Below, piece by piece: positions 3,793-32,318 of a DNA stretch of 32,585 bases. How positions within the stretch are numbered: the stretch's first letter is position 1; the number at the start of each line of letters is the position of its first letter. The position numbers and the translations under genes are program-made. The DNA comes from Phycisphaera mikurensis NBRC 102666 (GTDB lineage: Bacteria > Planctomycetota > Phycisphaerae > Phycisphaerales > SM1A02), in NCBI GenBank assembly GCA_945870475.1, contig CAMBSR010000002.1, positions 1 to 32,585 on the forward strand. The letters are read 5' to 3'. A model generated the notes under the pieces. That model searched no databases, had not been told where the DNA came from, and worked only from the letters and a program-made list of their open reading frames with translations.

Positions 3793-5564
3793 CCCTCGCG
3801 CGGCCGAAGGTCGTGATGCTCGGCTGGGAGTTCCCGCCATTCATCACCGGCGGACTCGGCACGGCGTGCCACGGCCTGACCAAGGCCCTGGCGTCCATGG
3901 ACGTGGACGTCACCTTCGTGCTGCCCAAGGGCGTGAAGGGCGACCACGCATCGCACGTTGACCTGGTGGTGCCGGGAAGCGCAGCCGACGAGCTGAAGGT
4001 GGCGACGCGCGGCGCGGAGCCGGCGCCTGCTGCCCTGCCGGTCGACCGCCGGTCCGCGGACCGCGGCATTGCCGCGCGACGCAACGCGGGTGAACCCGTG
4101 CCTGCACCGGGAAGCGCGCTTGCCGCCGCCACCGCCGCCGTTGGCGCGGCGGCTGCCGCCGGAAAGCCGCTCGCCGAGGCGGGCGCCCACATCGGCACTG
4201 CCTCGAATCCTGGCCGCATTCACGGCGAGAGCGCGCTCGGGCGCACCATCCGGATGATCGCGGCGCCCTTCGTTGCAAGCGGCGCCTACGCATCACCCGG
4301 TGCGCGCACCGTGCTCGAGCGCATCGCGCTTGCGAGCGCCGCGCCGCAGCGGCTCCTTCGCCCCGGTGCGCTTGCCAGCGCCGTCGGCCCCGACGATATC
4401 AGCGCCGAGCTCTTCACCGGGCTCGACGACGCCGCACGCGAGGAAGCGCTCGGCATCCTGGAAGCATGGGAGCGCTACGGCACCGACGACCCGACGGCCG
4501 TGGCGGAGATGGTGGAGATGGTGCGCGCCGTGCGTGCCGCCGTCCCCGAATCAAACGGCCGCGGCGCGCGCGTGGCGCTCGCGGGCGGCACCGGCGTGCC
4601 CGACTACGCGGGCGATCTCCTCGCGCAGAGCGAGGCGTACGCGCGCTTCGTGGTGGAAAGCTGCCGCGACCGCAACTTCGACGTGATCCACGCGCACGAC
4701 TGGCTCACCTACCCCGCCGGCATCGCCCTCGCGCGCGTCACCGGCAAGCCGCTCGTGGTGCACGTCCACAGCACGGAATTCGACCGTTCCGGCGAGCACG
4801 TCAACCAGCCCGTCTACAACATCGAGCGCCGCGGCATGCACGCCGCCGTCAAGGTGATCACGGTCAGCATGCTGACCCGGAACATCTGCGCCAACCGCTA
4901 CGCCGTGCCCGTTTCCAAGTGCGAGGTGGTCTACAACGGCGTCGACCTCGACCCGAAGGCCGTGGGCATCAGCACCATCGGCAAGCGCGACAAGATCGTC
5001 CTCTACTTCGGCCGCATCACGCTGCAGAAGGGGCCGGAGTACTTCGTGCACGCCGCCAAGCGCGTCCTGGAGAAGTACGAGGACGTCAAGTTCGTGGTGG
5101 CCGGCAGCGGCGACCAGGCGCAGTCGATGATCCAGCTTGCCGCCGAGCTCGGCATCGGGCACAAGGTGCTCTTCACCGGCTTCCTCCGCGGCAAGGACAT
5201 CCCGCGCGTCTTCAGCATGGCGGACCTCTACGTCATGCCGAGCGTGAGCGAGCCGTTCGGCATCGCGCCGCTCGAGGCGCTCGGCCACCGCGTGCCGGTC
5301 CTCATCAGCCGCCAGTCGGGCGTGAGCGAGGTGCTCACCAACGCGCTCAAGGTGGACTTCTGGGATGTCGACGACATGGCGAACAAGATCGTCGCCGTCC
5401 TGCGCCACCCGCCGCTCCAGCGCACGCTGACCGACCATGGCTTCGACGAGGTCCGCGGCATCACCTGGGACGGCGCCGCGGAGCGGTGCATCGAGGTATA
5501 CGGGCGGGCGCTCGCCGCGGTGGGCCGCGGCCTATACTCCGCAAATGGCGTTTTTCACGCGTAA
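3789..5564 (+). CDS. Glycosyltransferase, glycogen synthase-like GT4/GT5, with long Ala-rich insertion
   Basis: VVMLGWEFPPFITGGLGTACHGLTKAL N-terminus; FDVIHAHDWLTYPAGIALAR; GRITLQKGPEYFVHAAK; PSVSEPFGIAPLEALGHRVPVLISRQSGVSEV. Confidence 0.92.
   Translation: MTLARPKVVMLGWEFPPFITGGLGTACHGLTKALASMDVDVTFVLPKGVKGDHASHVDLVVPGSAADELKVATRGAEPAPAALPVDRRSADRGIAARRNAGEPVPAPGSALAAATAAVGAAAAAGKPLAEAGAHIGTASNPGRIHGESALGRTIRMIAAPFVASGAYASPGARTVLERIALASAAPQRLLRPGALASAVGPDDISAELFTGLDDAAREEALGILEAWERYGTDDPTAVAEMVEMVRAVRAAVPESNGRGARVALAGGTGVPDYAGDLLAQSEAYARFVVESCRDRNFDVIHAHDWLTYPAGIALARVTGKPLVVHVHSTEFDRSGEHVNQPVYNIERRGMHAAVKVITVSMLTRNICANRYAVPVSKCEVVYNGVDLDPKAVGISTIGKRDKIVLYFGRITLQKGPEYFVHAAKRVLEKYEDVKFVVAGSGDQAQSMIQLAAELGIGHKVLFTGFLRGKDIPRVFSMADLYVMPSVSEPFGIAPLEALGHRVPVLISRQSGVSEVLTNALKVDFWDVDDMANKIVAVLRHPPLQRTLTDHGFDEVRGITWDGAAERCIEVYGRALAAVGRGLYSANGVFHA
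5533..5538 (+). promoter_or_regulatory. -10-like TATACT, 6 nt before putA ATG (leaderless candidate)
   Basis: ggccTATACTccgcaaATG; no SD. Confidence 0.45.
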
Positions 5565-8556
5565 GAAGCCCGCTCCCGTCCGCACGTCCGCTCCGGCCGC
5601 CGCCCCCGCAGGCCGTGCCGCACCGCGTGACCCCGCCTTCGAACGCCGCGTCCAGGAGATCGGCGCCGAGTACCTGCGCACCGCGCGAGAGGCCGGCGCC
5701 GGCGTCTTCAGCGGCAGCCTCTCGGTGTTCAAGGACAAGCTCATGGACTGGGCGATGCAGGACGAGGCGTTCCGCGTCCAGCTCTTCCGCTTCGTGGACT
5801 GCTTCCCGACGCTGCGCAGCAACGACGCCATCTACGAGCACCTCACCGACTACCTCTCGCAGCCGGGCGTGAAGGCGCCGCCGGGCTTCGAGCTCGGCAT
5901 GGCGGCGGGCGGCCTGGCGAAGGGCCTGATGGCGAAGACCATGGCCGGCCAGATCGAGGGCATGGCGTCCAAGTTCATCGCCGGCACCGATGCGGCGAGC
6001 GCCCTTCCCTCGCTCGAGAAGATGTGGAAGAACGGTCTCTGCTTCAGCGTGGACCTCCTGGGCGAGGCCTGCGTGAGCGACGAGGAAGCCCGCCTCTACC
6101 GGCAGAAGTACCTGGACCTGGTGGAGAACCTGCCCAAGCGCGTCGCCAGCTGGCCGGGCAATCCCGTCCTGGAGAGCGACCACCTGGGCGCTGTGCCGCG
6201 CACCAACGTCAGCATCAAGATCAGCAGCCTGAGCGCGCGCGTCGACCCGATCGACACCGAGGGCTCCATCCGCACGCTCATGGCGGAGATCCTGCCGATC
6301 CTGGAAAGCGCCAGGAAGCACGGTGTTCTCGTCAATTTCGACATGGAGCAGTTCGCGCTCAAGGACCTCACCATCGAGCTCCTCAAGCGCTGCTGCGAGG
6401 CGGTGGACTTCGAGGCCGGCCTTGCCATGCAGGCCTACCTGCGCAGCGCGCCGGACGACGCGCGCAGCGTGGTCGAGTGGGCCAAGCGCACCGGGCGCGT
6501 GGTCACCGTGCGACTGGTGAAGGGCGCGTACTGGGACTACGAGACCATCCACGCCGAGCAGCAGGGATGGCCGGTGCCGGTGTGGAGCCGCAAGTGCGAC
6601 ACCGACGCGTGCTTCGAGCGCGTGGCGCAGTACTTCATCGAGAACAGCCCGCGCAAGATCGGCGAGGGCGGCGTGAAGCTCGCGCTCGGCTCGCACAACG
6701 CGCGCTCCATCGCGGCCGCGCTCGCCACGCTCGAGAAGCACGGGCTGCCGAAGTCGGCGATCGAGCTGCAGATGCTCCACGGCATGGGCGACCCGCTCAA
6801 GGCCGCGGCCATCGCCATGGGCCTGCGCGTGCGCGAGTACGTGCCGGTGGGCGAGATGATCCCCGGCATGGCGTACCTGGTGCGTCGCCTCCTCGAGAAC
6901 ACTTCCAACGAGAGCTGGCTCAAGGCCGGCTTCCTGGACAACGCCGACGTCTCGTCGCTGGTGGCGAGCCCGTTCCGCGAGCACGATTCCGACCCCGGCG
7001 TCGAGCGCATCCGCCTGGCCCCCGAGCGCCACACCCTCTCCTGCGCCGCCGCCGGCGTGGGCGACGGACGCCCGTTCTTCACGGAGCCGATGCGGAACTT
7101 CTCCGTTTCCTCGGCGCGTGACGCGTATCGCGCGGCCATCGCGTCGACTGCGGTGCCGAGCGTGGCGAACGATTCCACCGTGACCGACGCCGCCCGTGCC
7201 GTGGCCGCCGCCGACGCCGCGTTCCCGCGCTGGCGCGACCGGCCCAACGCCGAGCGCGCCGACATGCTGGTGCGCGCCGCGGCCACCATGCGCGCACGCC
7301 GCGACGAGCTCTCCGCCATCGTCATCAAGGAGAGCGGCAAGACCTGGCGCGAGGCCGACGCCGACGTCTGCGAGGCGATCGACTTCTGCGAGTACTACGC
7401 GCGCGAGTCCACCAAGCTGTTCGCGCGCCAGCGCCTGGGCAACTTCGTCGGCGAGCTCGACGAGCAGTGGTACCAGCCGCGCGGCGTGGCCGCGGTGATC
7501 AGCCCGTGGAACTTCCCGTTCGCCATCTGCTGCGGCATGACCGTGGCGGCGCTGGTGACGGGCAACACCGCGGTGGTGAAGCCCGCGGAGCAGACCCCGG
7601 CCATCGCCAAGGTGCTCTGCGACATCCTGTGGGCGGCCGGCGTGCCGCGCGACGTGCTGCACTTCGTGCCCGGCCCCGGCGAGACCGTCGGTGCCGCGCT
7701 GGTGCGCGACCCGCGCGTGGCGCTCATCGCGTTCACGGGCAGCAAGGCCGTGGGCCTCGACATCATCAAGGCCGCGGGCGAGCCGCGCGAGGGCCAGGAG
7801 TTCGTCAAGAAGGTGGTCTGCGAGATGGGCGGCAAGAACGCCCTCATCATCGACGAGAGCGCGGACCTCGACGAGGCCGTGCTCGGCGTGCGGCAGAGCG
7901 CCTTCGGCTTCCAGGGCCAGAAGTGCTCGGCGTGCAGCCGCGTGATCGTGCTCGACAGCGCGTACGACGTCTTCCTCCACCGCCTGGTGGAAGCGACGCG
8001 CGCGCTGGTGGTGGGCGACCCGCGCGAGCCCGGCACCGACGTCGGTCCGGTGATCGACGCCGAGGCCGCCGCCAAGATCCGCTCGTACATCGAGATCGGC
8101 GCCAAGGAAGGGAAGCTCGAGCTGACGCTCCCCGTCCCCGCAGGACTCGAGGCCAAGGTGGGCATGCCCTACGTCGGCCCCACCATCATCAGCGGCGTGC
8201 GCGCGGATGCGCGCGTCGCGACCGAGGAGATCTTCGGACCGGTGCTCGCAGTGATCCGCGCCAAGGACTTCGACGAGGCGCTGCGCATCGCCAACGCGCC
8301 CGCGTACAAGCTCACGGGCGGCATCTACACGCGCAAGCCCATGAACCTCGAGCGCGCCAAGCGCGAGTTCCGTGTCGGCAACCTCTACGTGAACCGCGGC
8401 ATCACCGGGGCGCTGGTCGGGCGCCAGCCCTTCGGTGGCTTCGGCATGTCGGGCGTCGGCAGCAAGGCCGGCGGCAGCGACTACCTGCTGCAGTTCGTGG
8501 AGCCGCGCGCCTGCTGCGAGAACACCATGCGCCGGGGCTTTGCGCCCGGGCTGTGA
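5545..8556 (+). CDS. putA: Bifunctional proline dehydrogenase / delta-1-pyrroline-5-carboxylate dehydrogenase
   Basis: PRODH motifs (NVSIKISSLSARVDPIDTEGS, VRLVKGAYWDYE, LASHN-like LALGSHNARS, LQMLHGMGDPLK) then P5CDH motifs (VISPWNFPFAI, FTGSKAVGLDIIKAA, GQKCSACSRVIV, RQPFGGFGMSGVGSKAGG). Confidence 0.95.
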   Translation: MAFFTRKKPAPVRTSAPAAAPAGRAAPRDPAFERRVQEIGAEYLRTAREAGAGVFSGSLSVFKDKLMDWAMQDEAFRVQLFRFVDCFPTLRSNDAIYEHLTDYLSQPGVKAPPGFELGMAAGGLAKGLMAKTMAGQIEGMASKFIAGTDAASALPSLEKMWKNGLCFSVDLLGEACVSDEEARLYRQKYLDLVENLPKRVASWPGNPVLESDHLGAVPRTNVSIKISSLSARVDPIDTEGSIRTLMAEILPILESARKHGVLVNFDMEQFALKDLTIELLKRCCEAVDFEAGLAMQAYLRSAPDDARSVVEWAKRTGRVVTVRLVKGAYWDYETIHAEQQGWPVPVWSRKCDTDACFERVAQYFIENSPRKIGEGGVKLALGSHNARSIAAALATLEKHGLPKSAIELQMLHGMGDPLKAAAIAMGLRVREYVPVGEMIPGMAYLVRRLLENTSNESWLKAGFLDNADVSSLVASPFREHDSDPGVERIRLAPERHTLSCAAAGVGDGRPFFTEPMRNFSVSSARDAYRAAIASTAVPSVANDSTVTDAARAVAAADAAFPRWRDRPNAERADMLVRAAATMRARRDELSAIVIKESGKTWREADADVCEAIDFCEYYARESTKLFARQRLGNFVGELDEQWYQPRGVAAVISPWNFPFAICCGMTVAALVTGNTAVVKPAEQTPAIAKVLCDILWAAGVPRDVLHFVPGPGETVGAALVRDPRVALIAFTGSKAVGLDIIKAAGEPREGQEFVKKVVCEMGGKNALIIDESADLDEAVLGVRQSAFGFQGQKCSACSRVIVLDSAYDVFLHRLVEATRALVVGDPREPGTDVGPVIDAEAAAKIRSYIEIGAKEGKLELTLPVPAGLEAKVGMPYVGPTIISGVRADARVATEEIFGPVLAVIRAKDFDEALRIANAPAYKLTGGIYTRKPMNLERAKREFRVGNLYVNRGITGALVGRQPFGGFGMSGVGSKAGGSDYLLQFVEPRACCENTMRRGFAPGL

Positions 8557-8613
8557 GGCGGGCGTGACGGCAGCACCCGCAATGCACCGGCATCGGCCCG
8601 CGTTGACCCGGGA

Positions 8614-9507
8614 ATGATCGCACGCTGCTCCCCGCATCTCCGCCGCTGCATGGTCACCATGGCAACCGTGGCGGCCGCCGCCTGCCTGATGGCGGCCACG
8701 ATCCCCGGCCGCATGGACCAAGGTGAAGGCACCCGCCGCACCTGGACCATCGAGGGCACGGAGCGAGAGGCGATCGTCCATCTGCCATCCGGCGCGCCAC
8801 GCCCCTGCCCGCTGATCCTGGCGTTCCACGGCCACGGCGGCAGCGCACAGCGCGTCTCGCGATCCATGCACCTGCAGGACGAATGGCCGGGTGCCGTCGT
8901 CGTCTATGCGCAGGGGCTTCCCACCAAGAGCCAGCGCGTCGATCCCGAGGGCAAGCGTCCCGGCTGGCAGAATCGCCCGGGCGAGTACGGTGACCGTGAC
9001 CTGAAGCTTATGGACTCGATCGTGGATTCGCTGCGCAACGAGGGCTGGGTGGACGACACCCGCGTCTACGCCACCGGCCACTCCAACGGTGCCGGCTTCA
9101 CGTATGCGCTCTGGCTCGCGCGCCCGGAAATGCTCGCGGCCGTGGCGCCGGTGGCGGGAGGTTCGCTCGCCGCGAGGCAGCTTGTGCCGATGCCGTGCAT
9201 GCACATCGCCGGCCGGGCGGATGCCATCGTTCCCTTCGCCGGCCAGGAACGCGTGATGAACGTGGTGCGCCAGGTCAACGGGTGCGAAGGAACCGGGAAG
9301 CCATGGGCGAAGGAGTGCACCCGGTGGGAGTCGCCGCTGGGCACGCCCTTCGTGGCCATGGTCACCGACGGCGGCCACCAGTACCCGGCCGAGGCCCCTG
9401 CCCTGATCGTGCGCTTCCTGAGGGAACACTCCGCATTGATCCCCTGCGGACCGCCCGCACCGGGCGAAAGGTGGCCACGCGTGGTCCGTACGCGCAGCGC
9501 CAAGTAG
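8614..9507 (+). CDS. Secreted PHB-depolymerase / LpqC-like alpha/beta-hydrolase esterase
   Basis: PLILAFHGHGGSA, WVDDTRVYATGHSNGAGFTYALW (G-H-S-N-G nucleophile elbow), VAPVAGG, GGHQYP; hydrophobic N-terminus. Confidence 0.85.
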   Translation: MIARCSPHLRRCMVTMATVAAAACLMAATIPGRMDQGEGTRRTWTIEGTEREAIVHLPSGAPRPCPLILAFHGHGGSAQRVSRSMHLQDEWPGAVVVYAQGLPTKSQRVDPEGKRPGWQNRPGEYGDRDLKLMDSIVDSLRNEGWVDDTRVYATGHSNGAGFTYALWLARPEMLAAVAPVAGGSLAARQLVPMPCMHIAGRADAIVPFAGQERVMNVVRQVNGCEGTGKPWAKECTRWESPLGTPFVAMVTDGGHQYPAEAPALIVRFLREHSALIPCGPPAPGERWPRVVRTRSAK

Positions 9508-9570
9508 GATGCGGGACCGTTCTTCCGCACTTCCGCGGGGAACCCCCACTTCGCCCAAGGGCCACGACAC

Positions 9571-11943
9571 ATGATGACCATCGCCGGACTTGTCGTCCTC
9601 GCAAGCGCTTCGCTTGCCACCCCGTTCATGACGTTCCAGGCACCGCCGGCCGCGCCCGCGCAGGGCGCAGGCTCGGACGCCGCCCCGGCGGCCGCGCAGA
9701 CCGCGGTGGTTCCCTCGGAGTGGCCGCAGGTGGCCACCACCGACGGCGTGACCTTCACCATCAACGAGCCTTCCTACACCGCCATCGCCGGCAATACCGT
9801 GACGCTCCGCGCCGTGGTGCAGGTGAAGCGCGCAACGGGCAGCCCGACCGCGGGCACGCTCGACATGACCGCCGTGGTCACCTCCTCGGAGACGCCGGGC
9901 GTGGTCGAACTGAACGAGTTCACCATCAACACGTGCATGCTCGACGACGGTACCGGCGCGGCCACGCAGGCCGAGTTTGCCAAGCTCCTCGAGGGCGTCG
10001 GCTTCGATGCCACGCTGAGCACCATCGTCGAGGGCATCGCCATCGATTCCTCGCGCGACGTGAAGGACCTCTCGAACGCCGTCCCGGTGATCAAGGTCAC
10101 CGAGCGCAACACGGTGCTGATCTCCGTCAACGGCGCACCGCGCTTCGGTCCCTGCGGCACGGGCGGCTGGAAGCGCGTGGTGAACACGCCGAACATCCTG
10201 CTCAAGTCCCCGTCCGGTGCGTGGTACACCCGGCTTTCCTCCCAGGAATGGGTGAGCGCGGCCACCATGGAAGGCCCGTTCAACGCGGCGCAGACCGATC
10301 CGCCGCAGGACGTCATCACCGCGCTCGGCAAGCCGAAGGCGCCCCCCGCCGACGTGAAGGACACCATCGACCTGCACCGCACCACTCACGTCCAGGGTCC
10401 GCCGCCGGACGTCTACATCGCCATCCGTCCCACCGTCCTCGTATCCATCTCCGGCAAGCCGGAACTGGCCGACGCGTGCCCCGGCGTGCAGCGCGTGACC
10501 AACACGGCGGACACCATCCTCCGCAGCGGCAACGAGTGGTGGATCCTCGGCTCGGGCCGCTGGTTCGCCTCGACCGACCTGCTGAAGGGCCCGTGGGCAT
10601 ACCAGGCCGCCGACAAGGTTCCGGCCGCGTTCGCCAAGCTGCCGGCCAGCGGCAGGATGGGCGCCGTGCGCGCCAGCGTCCCCGGCACCACCGAGGCGAA
10701 GGCGGCGAGCCTCACCAGCAACCTGGTGCGCACGCTCACGCTCACCCGCGCCGATGCCAAGTGCATGCCGGTCTACAGCGGCCAGCCGCACTTCTCGCCG
10801 ATCGAAGGCAGCGCGCTCTCGTACTGCACCAACGCACGGCAGCCGGTGCTGAAGCTCGATGCGGCCTACTACTGCTGCGACGACGGCGCGTGGTTCACGG
10901 CCACCGACCCGAACGGCCCGTGGACGCTCTGCGATTCGGTGCCCGAGGCGATCTACTCGATCCCGGCCTCGTGCCCGGTGTACGCGTGCACGTACGTCGA
11001 GGTCTACGGCAGCACCCCGAACGCCGTGACCTACGGATCGACCGCCGGCTACTTCGGCACGTACATGCAGAACGGCACCCCGGTCTACGGCACGGGCTAT
11101 GACTACAACGCAGCCCTGCACGCCTCCACGGCGGACCAGGACGCGATGGCGGCCAACGACCCGAACTACGTGGCCCCGGCCTACCCGGCCACCTACGGCA
11201 ACCAGGCCGAGTACTCCCCGGATGACGGCACCTATGCGCCGCCGACGAGCAACGAGTACATCGATGACTACCCGGACATGTACTCCGACGTCTACGACGA
11301 CGGCTACGGCGGCTACGGCTGGTGCCCCTACTGGGGTTCCGCCTACGGCTACGGCTATGGCTATGGCTACGGCTGGAACGACTGGGGCCGCTGGCACCGC
11401 CGGTGGGACGACCACCGTCGCACGGCAGCAGCAGCGCGCGCAGCCAACGACCACCGCAACGACCTCGGCGGCATGGGCCGCGCGAACGCGAACGCGGCAG
11501 CCGCCGACCGCGCACGCGCGGGCGCCGGTTGGCGCGGCGGAGCGGGCATGGACGCAGGCATGCGTGGCGCCGGCGGCATGGGCATCGACCAGGGCATGCG
11601 CGGCACCGGCGGCATGGGCATCGACCAGGGCATGCGCGGCGTCGGCGGCATGGGCATCGACCAGGGCATGCGCGGCACCGAAGGCGTGGACCGCGGCATG
11701 GGCACCAACCGTGGCATGGGTACGCAGCCCGGCATGGGCACCAACCGCGGCATGGGCACCCAGCCGGGCATGGGCAACAACCGCTGGGGCGCAGCCAACG
11801 CGGCCAACAACCGCGGCGGTGGCGGCTACGGCGGCTCCCGCGGCGCGTCCGGCTTCCACAGCGCACAGCGCATGAGCGCGCCGAACTACGGAAATCGTGG
11901 TGGCGGCGGCATGCGCGGCGGTGGTGGTGGCGGTCGCCGCTGA
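9571..11943 (+). CDS. Exported modular hypothetical protein with three related W/F-GPW modules and Tyr/Gly- and Gly/Met-rich C-terminal repeats
   Basis: Signal-like N-terminus; three modules of form V.(I/Y)SG.P....NT...(L/I)....WY/WW....W(F/V)....GP(W/F); TYVEVYGSTPNAVTYGSTAGYFGTYMQNGTPVYGTGYDYN; GGMGIDQGMRGT repeats; GGGGG-RR C-terminus. Confidence 0.85.
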   Translation: MMTIAGLVVLASASLATPFMTFQAPPAAPAQGAGSDAAPAAAQTAVVPSEWPQVATTDGVTFTINEPSYTAIAGNTVTLRAVVQVKRATGSPTAGTLDMTAVVTSSETPGVVELNEFTINTCMLDDGTGAATQAEFAKLLEGVGFDATLSTIVEGIAIDSSRDVKDLSNAVPVIKVTERNTVLISVNGAPRFGPCGTGGWKRVVNTPNILLKSPSGAWYTRLSSQEWVSAATMEGPFNAAQTDPPQDVITALGKPKAPPADVKDTIDLHRTTHVQGPPPDVYIAIRPTVLVSISGKPELADACPGVQRVTNTADTILRSGNEWWILGSGRWFASTDLLKGPWAYQAADKVPAAFAKLPASGRMGAVRASVPGTTEAKAASLTSNLVRTLTLTRADAKCMPVYSGQPHFSPIEGSALSYCTNARQPVLKLDAAYYCCDDGAWFTATDPNGPWTLCDSVPEAIYSIPASCPVYACTYVEVYGSTPNAVTYGSTAGYFGTYMQNGTPVYGTGYDYNAALHASTADQDAMAANDPNYVAPAYPATYGNQAEYSPDDGTYAPPTSNEYIDDYPDMYSDVYDDGYGGYGWCPYWGSAYGYGYGYGYGWNDWGRWHRRWDDHRRTAAAARAANDHRNDLGGMGRANANAAAADRARAGAGWRGGAGMDAGMRGAGGMGIDQGMRGTGGMGIDQGMRGVGGMGIDQGMRGTEGVDRGMGTNRGMGTQPGMGTNRGMGTQPGMGNNRWGAANAANNRGGGGYGGSRGASGFHSAQRMSAPNYGNRGGGGMRGGGGGGRR
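11572..11679 (+). repeat. 36-bp tandem repeat x3 (GGMGIDQGMRGx)
   Basis: ggcggcatgggcatcgaccagggcatgcgcggc(acc/gtc) starting at 11572, 11608 and 11644, near-identical. Confidence 0.9.
11692..11781 (+). repeat. 18-bp degenerate tandem repeat x5 ([RP]GMGT[NQ][RP])
   Basis: Units at 11692, 11710, 11728, 11746 and 11764: cgcggcatgggcaccaac / cgtggcatgggtacgcag / cccggcatgggcaccaac / cgcggcatgggcacccag / ccgggcatgggcaacaac. Confidence 0.88.
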
Positions 11944-11970
11944 GTCGGCGAACATCTCACAGGAGAACCC

Positions 11971-12010
11971 GCAGGTTCCGGCCAACACGCGTTGGCCGGA
12001 ACCTGCTTTC
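11971..12010 (+). terminator. Intrinsic terminator of the 9571..11943 gene
   Basis: 16-bp perfect inverted repeat GCAGGTTCCGGCCAAC-ACGC-GTTGGCCGGAACCTGC followed by TTTCTTT. Confidence 0.88.
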
Positions 12011-12047
12011 TTTCCCGGGCGCGGTGCTCGCGAGCACGCACCGCCCT

Positions 12048-13598
12048 TCACCCCGCATGCCGATCAAGCACGCGGTACTGCACCGCCTCCGCCACGTGCA
12101 CGGCGCTCACCTGCGCCACGCCGTCAAGATCCGCAATCGTGCGTGCCATCCGTCGCACCTTGTCGTAGGCGCGAGCGCTCAAGCCCAGTTGCCCGATCGC
12201 CTCGCCGAGGAGCGCCCGCCCGGCGACGTCGAGCTCTGCCGCCGCATCGAGCGCCTTCCCGCGCAGGTGCGCGTTGAGCACCGCACCCTGCCGCGCGCGC
12301 TGCACCGCACGCGCGGCCATCACGCGCGATCGCAGTTCGGCGGTGCCCTCGCCCACGGGAGCTGCGGCCAGCCGCTCGAAGGGCACGGCCCGCACCTCCA
12401 CGTGCAGGTCGATGCGGTCGACGATGGGCCCGCTCACGCGCTCCATGTACTTCTCCTGCTCCCGCACACCGCGCGTGCCCGCGCCGCGATTGCCACGCGC
12501 AGTGGGATTCATGGCGGCCACCAGGATGCTCCTTGCGGGGAAGCGCGCGCTGCCATGCGCACGGGCCACCGTGATGAACCCGTCCTCGAGGGGTTCGCGG
12601 AGCGCTTCCAGCGCGCTTCGGCCGAATTCCGGGAGCTCGTCCATGAAGAGGACGCCGTGGTGCGCGAGCGTCACCTCGCCCGGGCGCGGGACTCCCGCCG
12701 CGCCGCCCCCGACGAGCGCCACCGTGCTGGCCGTGTGGTGCGGCGCCCGAAACGGCCGCTCGGTCACGAGCCGCGGCGCGCCGGAACCGGCCGCGCTCCA
12801 GATCCGCGTGACCTCGAGCGCCTCGTCGGGCTCGAGGGGCGGCATGATCCCGGGCAGCGCGCGCGCCATCATGGTCTTGCCGCACCCGGCCGGGCCGATG
12901 AGGAGCGCGTTGTGCCCGCCCGCCGCGGCGATCGTGAGCGCACGCTTCGCAGGGCCCTGCCCGCGGATCTCGCGGAAGTCGACCGCCGGCGCCGTCACCG
13001 CGATGGCCCCGCGCACGTCCACCGGCTGCGCCTTCGGCAGGACGCACGCGCCGCGGAAGAATGCCACCACTTCGGGCAGCGCCCCCGCGGCACGCACGTC
13101 CATCCCTTCCACCACCGCCGCCTCGCGCGCGTTGTCGGCCGGCACCACGATGCCTGCCAGCCCCAACCGCCGCGCCAGGAGCGCCATCCCCACCGCCCCG
13201 CGCACGCTGCGCAACGATCCATCGAGCGCCAGCTCGCCGGCGAGCATCCACGCGCCAACCTCCGGCACGCGATCGCCGCCTGTGCCGCCGCCGCTTCCTC
13301 GACCATCCGCCGCGTCCGGCGCCGCCAGAAGCAGCGCCACCGCAATCGGCAGGTCGAACGCCGGCCCCTGCTTCCGCAGGTCCGCGGGCGCAAGGCTGAT
13401 GGTGGTCCGGTGCCGCGGCGGTTCGAATCCGCTGGCCGCCATCGCACTCTTCACGCGTTCGATGCTCTCGCGCACGGCGAGGTCCGGCAGACCCACCAGC
13501 GCAATGCGTGGCAGCCCGCGCGACTGGAGCGAGACCTCCACGTCGCAGCGGACCGCATCGATGCCCTGCAGGGCGAAACTGGGAATGGTCACGAGCAT
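12048..13598 (-). CDS. YifB/ComM family Mg-chelatase-like AAA+ ATPase
   Basis: VEVSLQSRGLPRIALVGLPDLAVRESIERVKSAMAASGFEPP; LLIGPAGCGKTMMARALPGIMPPL; FRAPHHTAS; GVLFMDELPEF; FILVAAMNPT; typical length. Confidence 0.95.
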   Translation of the reverse strand: MLVTIPSFALQGIDAVRCDVEVSLQSRGLPRIALVGLPDLAVRESIERVKSAMAASGFEPPRHRTTISLAPADLRKQGPAFDLPIAVALLLAAPDAADGRGSGGGTGGDRVPEVGAWMLAGELALDGSLRSVRGAVGMALLARRLGLAGIVVPADNAREAAVVEGMDVRAAGALPEVVAFFRGACVLPKAQPVDVRGAIAVTAPAVDFREIRGQGPAKRALTIAAAGGHNALLIGPAGCGKTMMARALPGIMPPLEPDEALEVTRIWSAAGSGAPRLVTERPFRAPHHTASTVALVGGGAAGVPRPGEVTLAHHGVLFMDELPEFGRSALEALREPLEDGFITVARAHGSARFPARSILVAAMNPTARGNRGAGTRGVREQEKYMERVSGPIVDRIDLHVEVRAVPFERLAAAPVGEGTAELRSRVMAARAVQRARQGAVLNAHLRGKALDAAAELDVAGRALLGEAIGQLGLSARAYDKVRRMARTIADLDGVAQVSAVHVAEAVQYRVLDRHAG

Positions 13599-29918: not shown

Positions 29919-30071
29919 TCGGATAAGCCGCAGAGGGCTGATGCGGCCCGGCTCCGGCGGCGAATCCGTACCGGGGGAGCAACGATGGACCCATTCCGGG
30001 CAACCGTCGTTTCCCTCCCGGGGGTTCCCGGGGTACCGTTATCCCGGAACCACCGACGACGGAATCCAGAC

Positions 30072-32318
30072 ATGCAGACCCGATCCACCGCCCTCCTCGT
30101 ACTCGCGGCCACGGCCATCCTCACCCCTGCCGTGGCGATCGCCGCCGAGCAGGAGCAGCGCTCGACCCTCACGCGCGTGCGTGAGGGGGGTACGCCGTAT
30201 GACCCCAACCAGTCGCTCGTGCCGTACGCAATCGACGTGTCCGGTGCGCGCGACATGCCCGCCGGGGCAGGCGCGTTCACCGCACCGAACCCGTCCCTGG
30301 TCTCGAGCCCACCGGAGTATTCGCCCACCCGCGGAGTGCTCTTCCAGTACGGCAGCAGCTGGAACACGGTGGTGACAGCGTGCGTCAGCGCACTGACGGC
30401 CGGAACCGTGAACGACGAGATCGCCTACGTGCTGGTGGCCAACCAGACCACGGCGACGTCCGCGGCGAGCGCCTTCTCCGCAGCGGGGGCGAACCTCTCG
30501 AAGGTCGTCTTCATCATCCAGCCGAACAACTCGATCTGGATGCGCGACTACGGCCCGCACTTCGTCTTCGAGAACGGCACGCTCGCGGTGGTGGACAGCC
30601 ACTACTACTCGACGCGTCCCCAGGACAACTTCATCCCCACGCTCGTCGGCGATGCGACCTTCGGCGTGTCCACCTACGACCAGGGGCTGTACTACTCCGG
30701 CGGCAACTTCCAGCCCGGCCCAGGCCGCTCCGGTTTCTGCACGGCGCTCGTGAACCTCGACAACCCGTCCAGCGAGGGATTCAGCGACTCGCTCGTCCGC
30801 GAGCTCCACGACTCGTTCCAGGGGATCGATACCCTCCACGTCCTGCCTCAGCTGCCGTTCTCCGTGGACGGCACCGGGCACATCGACATGTGGATGTACC
30901 TCGTCGACGAGAACACGGTCGTGATCTCGGAGTTCATCGCCGGCTCGAACGCGACGGCGATCAGCGTCACCAACAACGCCGTGCCGTACATGCAGGCGCT
31001 CGGCTTCGAGGTGCTGCGGCCGAAGGCATGGAACGTCGGCTCGACGCACTACACCTACGCCAACGCGTTCCGCGTCAACAACCGGATCTTCATCCCCGTG
31101 TACGGGACCGCGGTGGTGCCGGGCGGCAACGCCTCCTACAACGACGAGGACGCCGACGCCATCGCCAAGTGGACCGCCGCGGCCGGGTCGGGCGTGACGC
31201 TGGTGCCCATCCAGTGCTCGAGCATCATCACTGCCTCGGGTGCGATCCACTGCATCGTCAAGCAGGTGCCGCGCTACGCGAACGCCCTGCCGGCGGCGCA
31301 CCTGTCCGCACCCTCCGGGGGCGTGGTGCTCGCGGGTTCGGTGCAGGAGATCCGCTGGAACGCCACCGACACCAACAACGCGGCGCTCGCGAGCGTGGAT
31401 CTCGCGTACTCGCTCGACGGCACCGTGTGGACGAACATCGCCACGGGCATCCCGGACTCGGGCGCCTACTCCTGGACGGTGCCCGTCGGCATCGCGGGCA
31501 CCGCCGCGCGGGTGCGCGTCACGGCACGCGCCGCGGACGGCGACACGGTCATGGCGATGGGCAACCCGTTCCGCGTCGGGCCGGGCACGCGAAAGGTCTA
31601 CGACCTGTCCACGGACACGGGCGTCGGCCGCTTCGTGACCGGTACGCAGACCACCGCGTGGTCGGCCGCATCCGGCAACCAGCTTCCCGTGACCGGCGCG
31701 GTCACGTCGGCCAACTACACCGCGATGGCAACGTCAAACGCCAACGGCGGAATCACCGACACCAACCGCTACATCTCCCCGACGGTGGCCGCTGCAAGCC
31801 GGGCGACGCATGTCTTCCGCTTCCGCATCACCGAATCGCCTGCATCGATCTCCGAGCTGCGAATCACCTGGGAGGGCTTTGCAGACCGCTGCACCCAGGC
31901 AGAGCTCTACGTGTGGGACGTGGCCCGCGCCCAGTGGGGAAATGCCGCCGGACTCGTCGGCGAGAACCGCTACGCGGACAGCTGGGCCGGCAACCGGGAC
32001 GAGGCCCTCACGGCGTCCATCACCGCCGACATCGGCAGCTTCGTGGCGGCCGACGGCACGGTGCGCTTCATGGTCTACGCCGACCGGGTCGCCGACGAGA
32101 CCTTCCATGACTTCGCCGCCGTGGCGGTGACGAGCCTCACCCCCTCGTGCACCGGCGACTTCGGTGGCAACGGCGTCGTCGACGGAGCCGACCTCGGGGT
32201 CATGCTCGCCCTGTGGGGCCAGTCCTGCGGCGCATGCGTCGCCGACCTGAACGGAGACACCGTGGTCGACGGTGCGGACCTCGGCGCGCTCCTGAGCCGC
32301 TGGGGGCCCTGCCCCTGA
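30072..32318 (+). CDS. Secreted peptidylarginine/agmatine deiminase-family protein with Ig-like, jelly-roll-like and dockerin-like C-terminal modules
   Basis: Signal peptide MQTRSTALLVLAATAILTPAVAIAA; SIWMRDYGPHFVF, FSVDGTGHIDMWMYLVDE, TYANAFRVNNRIFIPVYG, ITASGAIHCIVKQVP (Asp, His-Asp, Asn and Cys active-site positions); C-terminal DFGGNGVVDGADLGVMLALWG...DLNGDTVVDGADLGALLSRWG. Confidence 0.92.
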   Translation: MQTRSTALLVLAATAILTPAVAIAAEQEQRSTLTRVREGGTPYDPNQSLVPYAIDVSGARDMPAGAGAFTAPNPSLVSSPPEYSPTRGVLFQYGSSWNTVVTACVSALTAGTVNDEIAYVLVANQTTATSAASAFSAAGANLSKVVFIIQPNNSIWMRDYGPHFVFENGTLAVVDSHYYSTRPQDNFIPTLVGDATFGVSTYDQGLYYSGGNFQPGPGRSGFCTALVNLDNPSSEGFSDSLVRELHDSFQGIDTLHVLPQLPFSVDGTGHIDMWMYLVDENTVVISEFIAGSNATAISVTNNAVPYMQALGFEVLRPKAWNVGSTHYTYANAFRVNNRIFIPVYGTAVVPGGNASYNDEDADAIAKWTAAAGSGVTLVPIQCSSIITASGAIHCIVKQVPRYANALPAAHLSAPSGGVVLAGSVQEIRWNATDTNNAALASVDLAYSLDGTVWTNIATGIPDSGAYSWTVPVGIAGTAARVRVTARAADGDTVMAMGNPFRVGPGTRKVYDLSTDTGVGRFVTGTQTTAWSAASGNQLPVTGAVTSANYTAMATSNANGGITDTNRYISPTVAAASRATHVFRFRITESPASISELRITWEGFADRCTQAELYVWDVARAQWGNAAGLVGENRYADSWAGNRDEALTASITADIGSFVAADGTVRFMVYADRVADETFHDFAAVAVTSLTPSCTGDFGGNGVVDGADLGVMLALWGQSCGACVADLNGDTVVDGADLGALLSRWGPCP

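Follow-up and report, generated by a model that had tools for sequence, protein, structure and literature searches.

A secreted PPAD-like deiminase with a dockerin-like tail in a freshwater planctomycete, probably acting on peptidyl-arginine

The peptidylarginine deiminase (PAD) of Porphyromonas gingivalis, PPAD, is investigated as a link from gum disease to rheumatoid arthritis. Agmatine deiminase (AguA) is a cytosolic enzyme of a single domain. Among microbes, PPAD has been called unique in being a PAD that is secreted (PMC4487231); it has also been named the only prokaryotic PAD known (PMC4893104). Enzymes of its type are phyletically distinct from the PADIs (PMC8826395). In the proposal of Goulas et al., PPAD arose by the transfer of a single-domain agmatine deiminase, which was followed by fusion (PMC4487231).

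The active site of PPAD has been defined in two studies (Goulas 2015; Montgomery 2015; PMC4487231; PMC4893104). The carboxylate of the substrate has three ligands, namely R152, Y233, and R154, the last of which binds the carboxylate as well as the preceding peptide carbonyl. The hydrogen bond of R154 to this carbonyl is the main factor in the preference for peptidyl-arginine over free arginine (PMC4487231). R152 forms a double salt bridge to the C-terminal carboxylate and is indispensable, and the R152A exchange abolishes the activity (PMC4487231). Y233, the gate on the Michaelis loop, clashes with C-terminal extensions of the substrate, whereas the equivalent Ser468 of human PAD4 leaves room for them (PMC4487231). 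N151 and E201 frame the hydroxide-entry channel.

The deiminase described here is encoded in the window (the whole stretch of 32,585 nucleotides that was analysed) of a metagenome-assembled genome (MAG) from a freshwater planctomycete, which is 87% complete. Judged by its sequence, this exported enzyme resembles PPAD more than any housekeeping enzyme. It is most likely, with a rough probability of 0.55, an exported PPAD-type deiminase that would act on arginine in peptides or proteins to yield citrulline and ammonia, and in which the requirement for a C-terminal arginine would be relaxed.

Gene, domains and tail

The gene and its parts, all on the + strand, are as follows.
30072..32318, + strand: whole gene of the exported modular deiminase, 748 aa (ORF, start of the same-genus orthologue, purifying selection)
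30072..30143, + strand: signal peptide, about aa 1-24 (MQTRSTALLVLAATAILTPAVAIA, followed by AEQ), with a short basic n-region, a hydrophobic core, and an AIA-A cleavage-like end
30309..31277, + strand: catalytic domain of the PAD_porph / guanidino-modifying fold, about aa 80-402 (Pfam PF04371, AlphaFold2, Foldseek)
31284..31580, + strand: Ig-like beta-sandwich, about aa 405-503 (AlphaFold2 tail model; Big_7/Kre9_KNH in relatives)
31581..32138, + strand: second beta-rich module, jelly-roll/CBM-like, about aa 504-689 (AlphaFold2 tail model)
32148..32315, + strand: two dockerin-like repeats of Ca-binding style, aa 693-748 (NF041540, below the cut-off)

The open reading frame runs from the ATG at 30072 to a stop ending at 32318 and encodes 748 aa, as the original prediction had it, and every motif quoted there is found in the sequence. 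An alternative in-frame ATG at 29985 is preceded by GGGGGAG, a good ribosome-binding-like sequence; 30072 is kept as the start because its Met aligns with the start position of the same-genus orthologue. The comparison with this orthologue gives a dN of 0.16 and a dS of 0.64 for the whole protein, and 0.09 and 0.47 for the catalytic domain, and the stretch is therefore a real gene under purifying selection.

A plasmid or phage origin of the gene was dropped, as tblastn against collections of plasmids and phages returned no match. Likewise, no functional partner gene was found when the flanking ORFs of 62 close-clade loci were compared all against all; the neighbours that recur in these loci, including an upstream ClpC, are restricted to a few near relatives, and a conserved operon or neighbour was dropped on this ground. 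Elsewhere in the window, positions 5437-8556 (+ strand) encode PutA of proline utilisation (proline dehydrogenase and aldehyde dehydrogenase, 1039 aa). An open frame of 2196 aa that lies antisense to PutA and its neighbours (5461-12051, - strand) is in all likelihood an artefact due to high G+C, and with an ORF of 790 aa at 9571-11943 (+ strand) Pfam gave no match (E up to 0.01).

The export of the protein, claimed from the first reading of the sequence, is borne out by a signal peptide that can be seen directly. Pfam PAD_porph (PF04371) matches aa 80-400 with 2.1e-19 and 70.4 bits against a cut-off of 25, and positions 3-321 of the 321 in the model are covered. The full-length AlphaFold2 model has a mean pLDDT of 79, with the catalytic domain mostly at 75-98. 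In the AlphaFold2 model of the tail (45 sequences, mean pLDDT 93.8), an Ig-like sandwich is followed by a second beta-rich module, mostly above 90, and a two-helix dockerin-like end. In the window protein all three parts are sub-threshold in Pfam and NCBIfam, with Kre9_KNH for example at E 0.013; close relatives match Big_7/Kre9_KNH over the Ig region. The Ig-like stretch of the original prediction is thus supported by the tail model, and it directly follows the catalytic domain, as in PPAD. The beta-rich module is likewise present in the model, whereas for its proposed jelly-roll identity there are weak Foldseek matches to the Ig+CBM regions of sialidases and to a porphyran-binding CBM. A jelly-roll-like fold is plausible from these matches; the module has no Pfam match, and no Pfam CBM match occurs anywhere in the window protein.

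The dockerin-like repeats were also modelled by AlphaFold2 and are shared with other secreted proteins, but their score with NF041540 (dockerin_GC) is 20.9 bits and lies below the 29-bit cut-off; Dockerin_1 is not among the Pfam matches of the window protein at E up to 1. Proteins anchored by GC-type dockerins (NF041540) have C-terminal tandem D-x-N-G-D-x-x-V-x-G-A-D-L repeats, and such repeats are present on many exported proteins of the source genome, in which the GC-type model found 16 matches (E up to 0.01). The exported carriers include a GH5 cellulase with CBM2, a PhoD phosphatase, a subtilase, an M12-type metallopeptidase, and a CBM96 protein. Since the same tail is found on many exported enzymes, it appears to be a general secretome tag in this genome, and it may act as an anchor or a sorting tag. 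The assembly through a dockerin that had been suggested is not supported in the source genome: no cohesin was found in its 87%-complete assembly, and a cellulosome-type arrangement was set aside here for that reason. Genomes of the same genus have 8 to 39 GC-type dockerin tails, and weak cohesin matches occur in 6 of 12 of them. Two genomes of another family in the same order (G003 and G013) have at least 150 such tails each, a very large tagged secretome.

Kinship with PPAD and separation from AguA

AguA (TIGR03380; PDB 2jer, 3h7c) and the window protein have the same fold and the same catalytic Cys/His/Asp/Asn/Asp. They differ in that AguA is cytosolic and single-domain, while the window protein is exported and modular. 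The motif HxDD is found in 30 of 30 AguA loci of the same class, whereas the window protein and its relatives have HIDM; an arginine at the position of R182 is present in the window protein and its relatives but in none of these AguA loci. The AguA equivalog model TIGR03380 gives the window protein 27.3 bits against a cut-off of 381.8. A firm grouping with cytosolic AguA, named in the original prediction among the outcomes that would tell against it, did not occur, as AguA forms one clade at 100/100 in a tree of 76 rows and the window protein lies outside it. By its low score, the missing HxDD, and the separate branch, the window protein is not an agmatine deiminase. The AguA models of NCBIfam match every scanned family member weakly, and naming by these matches would mislabel a PPAD-like secreted family as agmatine deiminases. 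With human PAD4 and the PADI family, the window protein would share the guanidino-modifying chemistry and a small residue (PAD4 Ser468) at the position of PPAD Tyr233, but that family, of eukaryotes and cyanobacteria, has the PAD_N, PAD_M, and PAD_C domains, none of which gave a Pfam match in the window protein at E up to 1.

The closest CHARACTERISED relative of the window protein is PPAD, a kinship that is favoured and not proven. A single-sequence search with the window protein found PPAD at 2e-14 and the next AguA-like chain at 2e-6, and a profile of 55 family members gave 2e-53 (185 bits) for PPAD against 1.7e-26 (96 bits) for the best AguA-like entry. The structural comparison with PPAD and AguA proposed earlier points the same way: with the full model, the first seven places in Foldseek are all PPAD (best 5.8e-30 over 456 columns), and the best AguA-like entry, 1xkn, comes after them with 3e-21. 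The identity of PPAD to the window protein is about 21% over the structural alignment.

In the trees, which were built without further Bacteroidota PPAD-like sequences, the modular side includes PPAD at 99/88. As its pairing with the sequence L051 in the first tree could be an artefact of long branches, the tree was rebuilt without L051, and PPAD then groups with the core family and two planctomycete sequences at 98/88. The profile, Foldseek, and the tree hence support a catalytic domain of PPAD type rather than AguA type, as had been predicted. The phylogeny was less decisive for PPAD itself, a long branch, as the AU test did not reject its grouping with AguA (p 0.123), and the kinship is for this reason favoured and not proven.

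L051 (2979-5456 region, - strand, G242:C8) encodes a deiminase of another sort from the same class, with a dockerin-like tail; it has no equivalent of R154, has the HIDCW of PPAD (Cys239), and joins PPAD as a long branch. Two planctomycete deiminases branching just outside the core family (L177 and L178, from G399 and G365) have both PPAD arginines, and L177 is the row closest to PPAD, with 33% over 297 columns.

PPAD (PDB 4yt9, 4ytb, 5ak7, 6i0x) is similar to the window protein in being exported and in the order of its parts, in which an Ig-like domain and then a C-terminal tail for secretion or attachment come after the catalytic domain. The succession of a catalytic and an Ig-superfamily domain is seen in the AlphaFold2 models and in Foldseek; the profile alignment continues into the Ig domain of PPAD without a gain in score there, which leaves homology from Ig to Ig undemonstrated. 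The window protein differs in its extra beta module and in having a dockerin-like tail in place of the T9SS C-terminal domain, and scans against Pfam and NCBIfam (E up to 1) found no T9SS sorting domain in it.

Substrate pocket and likely reaction

The residues of the predicted active site, all on the + strand, were located by alignment with PPAD.
30537..30548, + strand: W156 and D159, guanidinium pocket (PPAD W127 and D130; alignment with 4yt9)
30609..30617, + strand: S180-T-R182, in which S180 replaces PPAD R152 and R182 corresponds to PPAD R154
30870..30887, + strand: G267-T-G-H270-I-D272, in which G267 replaces PPAD Y233, and H270 and D272 correspond to the catalytic H236 and D238
31062..31064, + strand: N331 (PPAD N297)
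31251..31253, + strand: C394, predicted nucleophile (PPAD C351)

All five catalytic residues of PPAD (D130, H236, D238, N297, and C351) are thus matched in the window protein by D159, H270, D272, N331, and C394, and C394 is invariant across the 55-sequence family alignment. The equivalents of W127 and R154 are also present. The alignment by which the pockets were compared has R152/S180, Y233/G267, N151/Y179, E201/D230, and C239/M273 as the differing PPAD/window pairs. Pocket residues were counted over 147 rows with the HxDM motif, some of which are duplicated between sources. The equivalent of R154 is found in 146 of the 147 and is invariant in the 55-sequence alignment. An equivalent of R152 is present in 77 of 146 relatives, typically within YNRPRPND, a sequence identical to that of PPAD, and is lost in the branch of the window protein, where most kin have Pro. 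At the position of Y233, Tyr occurs in 0 of 146 relatives; most of the R152-bearing members have Ser, and the branch of the window protein has Gly or Ala. Further rim positions that separate this branch from the main one include Y179 (PPAD N151), S209 (T180), and D230 (E201). The main branch looks like a PPAD-like pocket with an open gate, and the branch of the window protein like an open gate from which the R152 clamp is absent. The raw counts for the two positions (R+S 61, P+G 47) are suggestive of R152 loss and Gly/Ala at position 233 going together, but this coupling is not significant when kinship is allowed for (six independent pairs on the tree, median p 0.375). Two acidobacterial members of the same branch differ at the R152 position, with Arg in L129 and Pro in L133.

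For the favoured PPAD-type deiminase, the signal peptide would export the enzyme, which would then act on arginine in extracellular peptides or proteins. By the chemistry of PPAD, D159 and D272 would hold the guanidinium, C394 would attack it to form a covalent amidino intermediate with the departure of ammonia, and H270 as the general base would activate water for the release of citrulline. R182, the retained arginine that binds the peptide carbonyl, would favour peptidyl-arginine, which is probably the substrate. Because the R152 and Y233 that fix the C-terminal carboxylate are lost, the requirement for a C-terminal arginine may be relaxed and internal arginines may be accepted; exodeimination as in PPAD is not to be assumed, since these carboxylate-clamping side chains are absent. 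The role of the Ig and jelly-roll-like modules may be to retain or target the enzyme, and that of the dockerin-like tail to serve as a generic surface or secretome tag. As R152A abolishes the activity of PPAD, the loss of R152 could also signal a different substrate and not a wider one.

Such a substrate could be small. A secreted hydrolase releasing extracellular ammonia and nitrogen from free arginine, agmatine, or another guanidine, for which peptides are not the substrate, would be in keeping with the AguA superfamily and with the weak AguA matches of all scanned members, and nitrogen scavenging would suit a small-genome freshwater planctomycete. However, the score of 27 bits against a 382-bit cut-off, HIDM in place of HxDD, and an R182 that has no equivalent in AguA argue against AguA itself; other small substrates are conceivable, but export and a modular tail of binding type would be odd for a soluble small molecule, and this reading, the chief rival of the favoured one, is unlikely.

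It is rather doubtful that the enzyme works as PPAD does, by citrullinating the C-terminal arginines that secreted proteases leave behind, while another residue stands in for R152. PPAD is its nearest characterised relative, the equivalent of R154 is kept, and among the exported proteins of the genome are a subtilase and an M12-type protease with the same tail. Two of the three carboxylate ligands of PPAD are nevertheless gone, including the indispensable R152. A gingipain-like partner protease was dropped, as no Peptidase_C25 was found in the source genome or its genus. In a genome of another family in the same order (G581), seven frames about 980-1060 aa long match gingipain-type Peptidase_C25 strongly.

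A substrate of another kind, such as a glycan, lipid, or natural product that bears a guanidino group, is improbable: the second beta module weakly resembles carbohydrate-binding jelly rolls and could point to a glycan, the tail carriers include a cellulase and the CBM96 protein, and the rim of the pocket is changed at Y179, S180, S209, and D230, but the retained peptide-carbonyl arginine and the closeness to PPAD favour peptides, and the window protein has no Pfam CBM match.

A secreted family and the origin of PPAD

A search with PAD_porph over 298 genomes of the same class found two main kinds of match. The AguA-like kind scores about 250-400 bits in frames mostly of 340-440 aa, and the second kind about 70-125 bits in frames mostly of 450-900 aa. 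Among the matches listed, the second kind is present in at least 56 of the 298 genomes, and 54 of its sequences were checked. By crude rules, hydrophobic N-termini occur in 116 of 138 family loci against 0 of 30 AguA loci, and 97 of the 138 have a dockerin-like end; in this set some loci are entered twice, having been taken from different sources, and some contigs are truncated. Members were found in 26 of 61 genomes of the same taxonomic family as the source genome, and more rarely (21 of 246 genomes, its own counted) in a phylum-wide draw. A scan of public genomes yielded no fewer than 561 relatives, and the loci kept from it, 79 in number, are mostly from Planctomycetota, and also from Acidobacteriota, Zixiibacteriota, and Gammaproteobacteria (Wenzhouxiangella, Tahibacter). 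The window protein is placed by these matches in a widespread secreted modular family.

No paper joining peptidylarginine deiminase with planctomycetes was found in the open-access literature, and a widespread environmental PPAD-like family is apparently undescribed. Its existence suggests that PPAD is not unique among microbes. The environmental family has the catalytic set of PPAD and its order of catalytic domain plus Ig, and about half of the members share the substrate-binding arginines. It is plausible as a rival origin for PPAD, against a single-domain agmatine deiminase with later fusion. A wider proposal can be put forward only tentatively: extracellular citrullination of PPAD type would be a widespread environmental trait, with an RPRPND branch and a branch whose opened pocket serves internal arginines, and PPAD would descend from a secreted family of two domains. 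If this is true, hundreds of Planctomycetota, Acidobacteriota, and some Gammaproteobacteria export deiminases with catalytic and Ig domains, and the citrullination of proteins is no speciality of one oral pathogen. Enzymes of the environmental family, being from non-pathogens, could be used for work on specificity, and they raise the question of what role extracellular citrullination has for lake bacteria.

Two tandem deiminase genes of the PPAD-like secreted family are present in one genome (L066:3438-11304, G116). Both have ICDYGP and not IRDYGP, in which the Arg beside the guanidinium-binding Asp is replaced by Cys.
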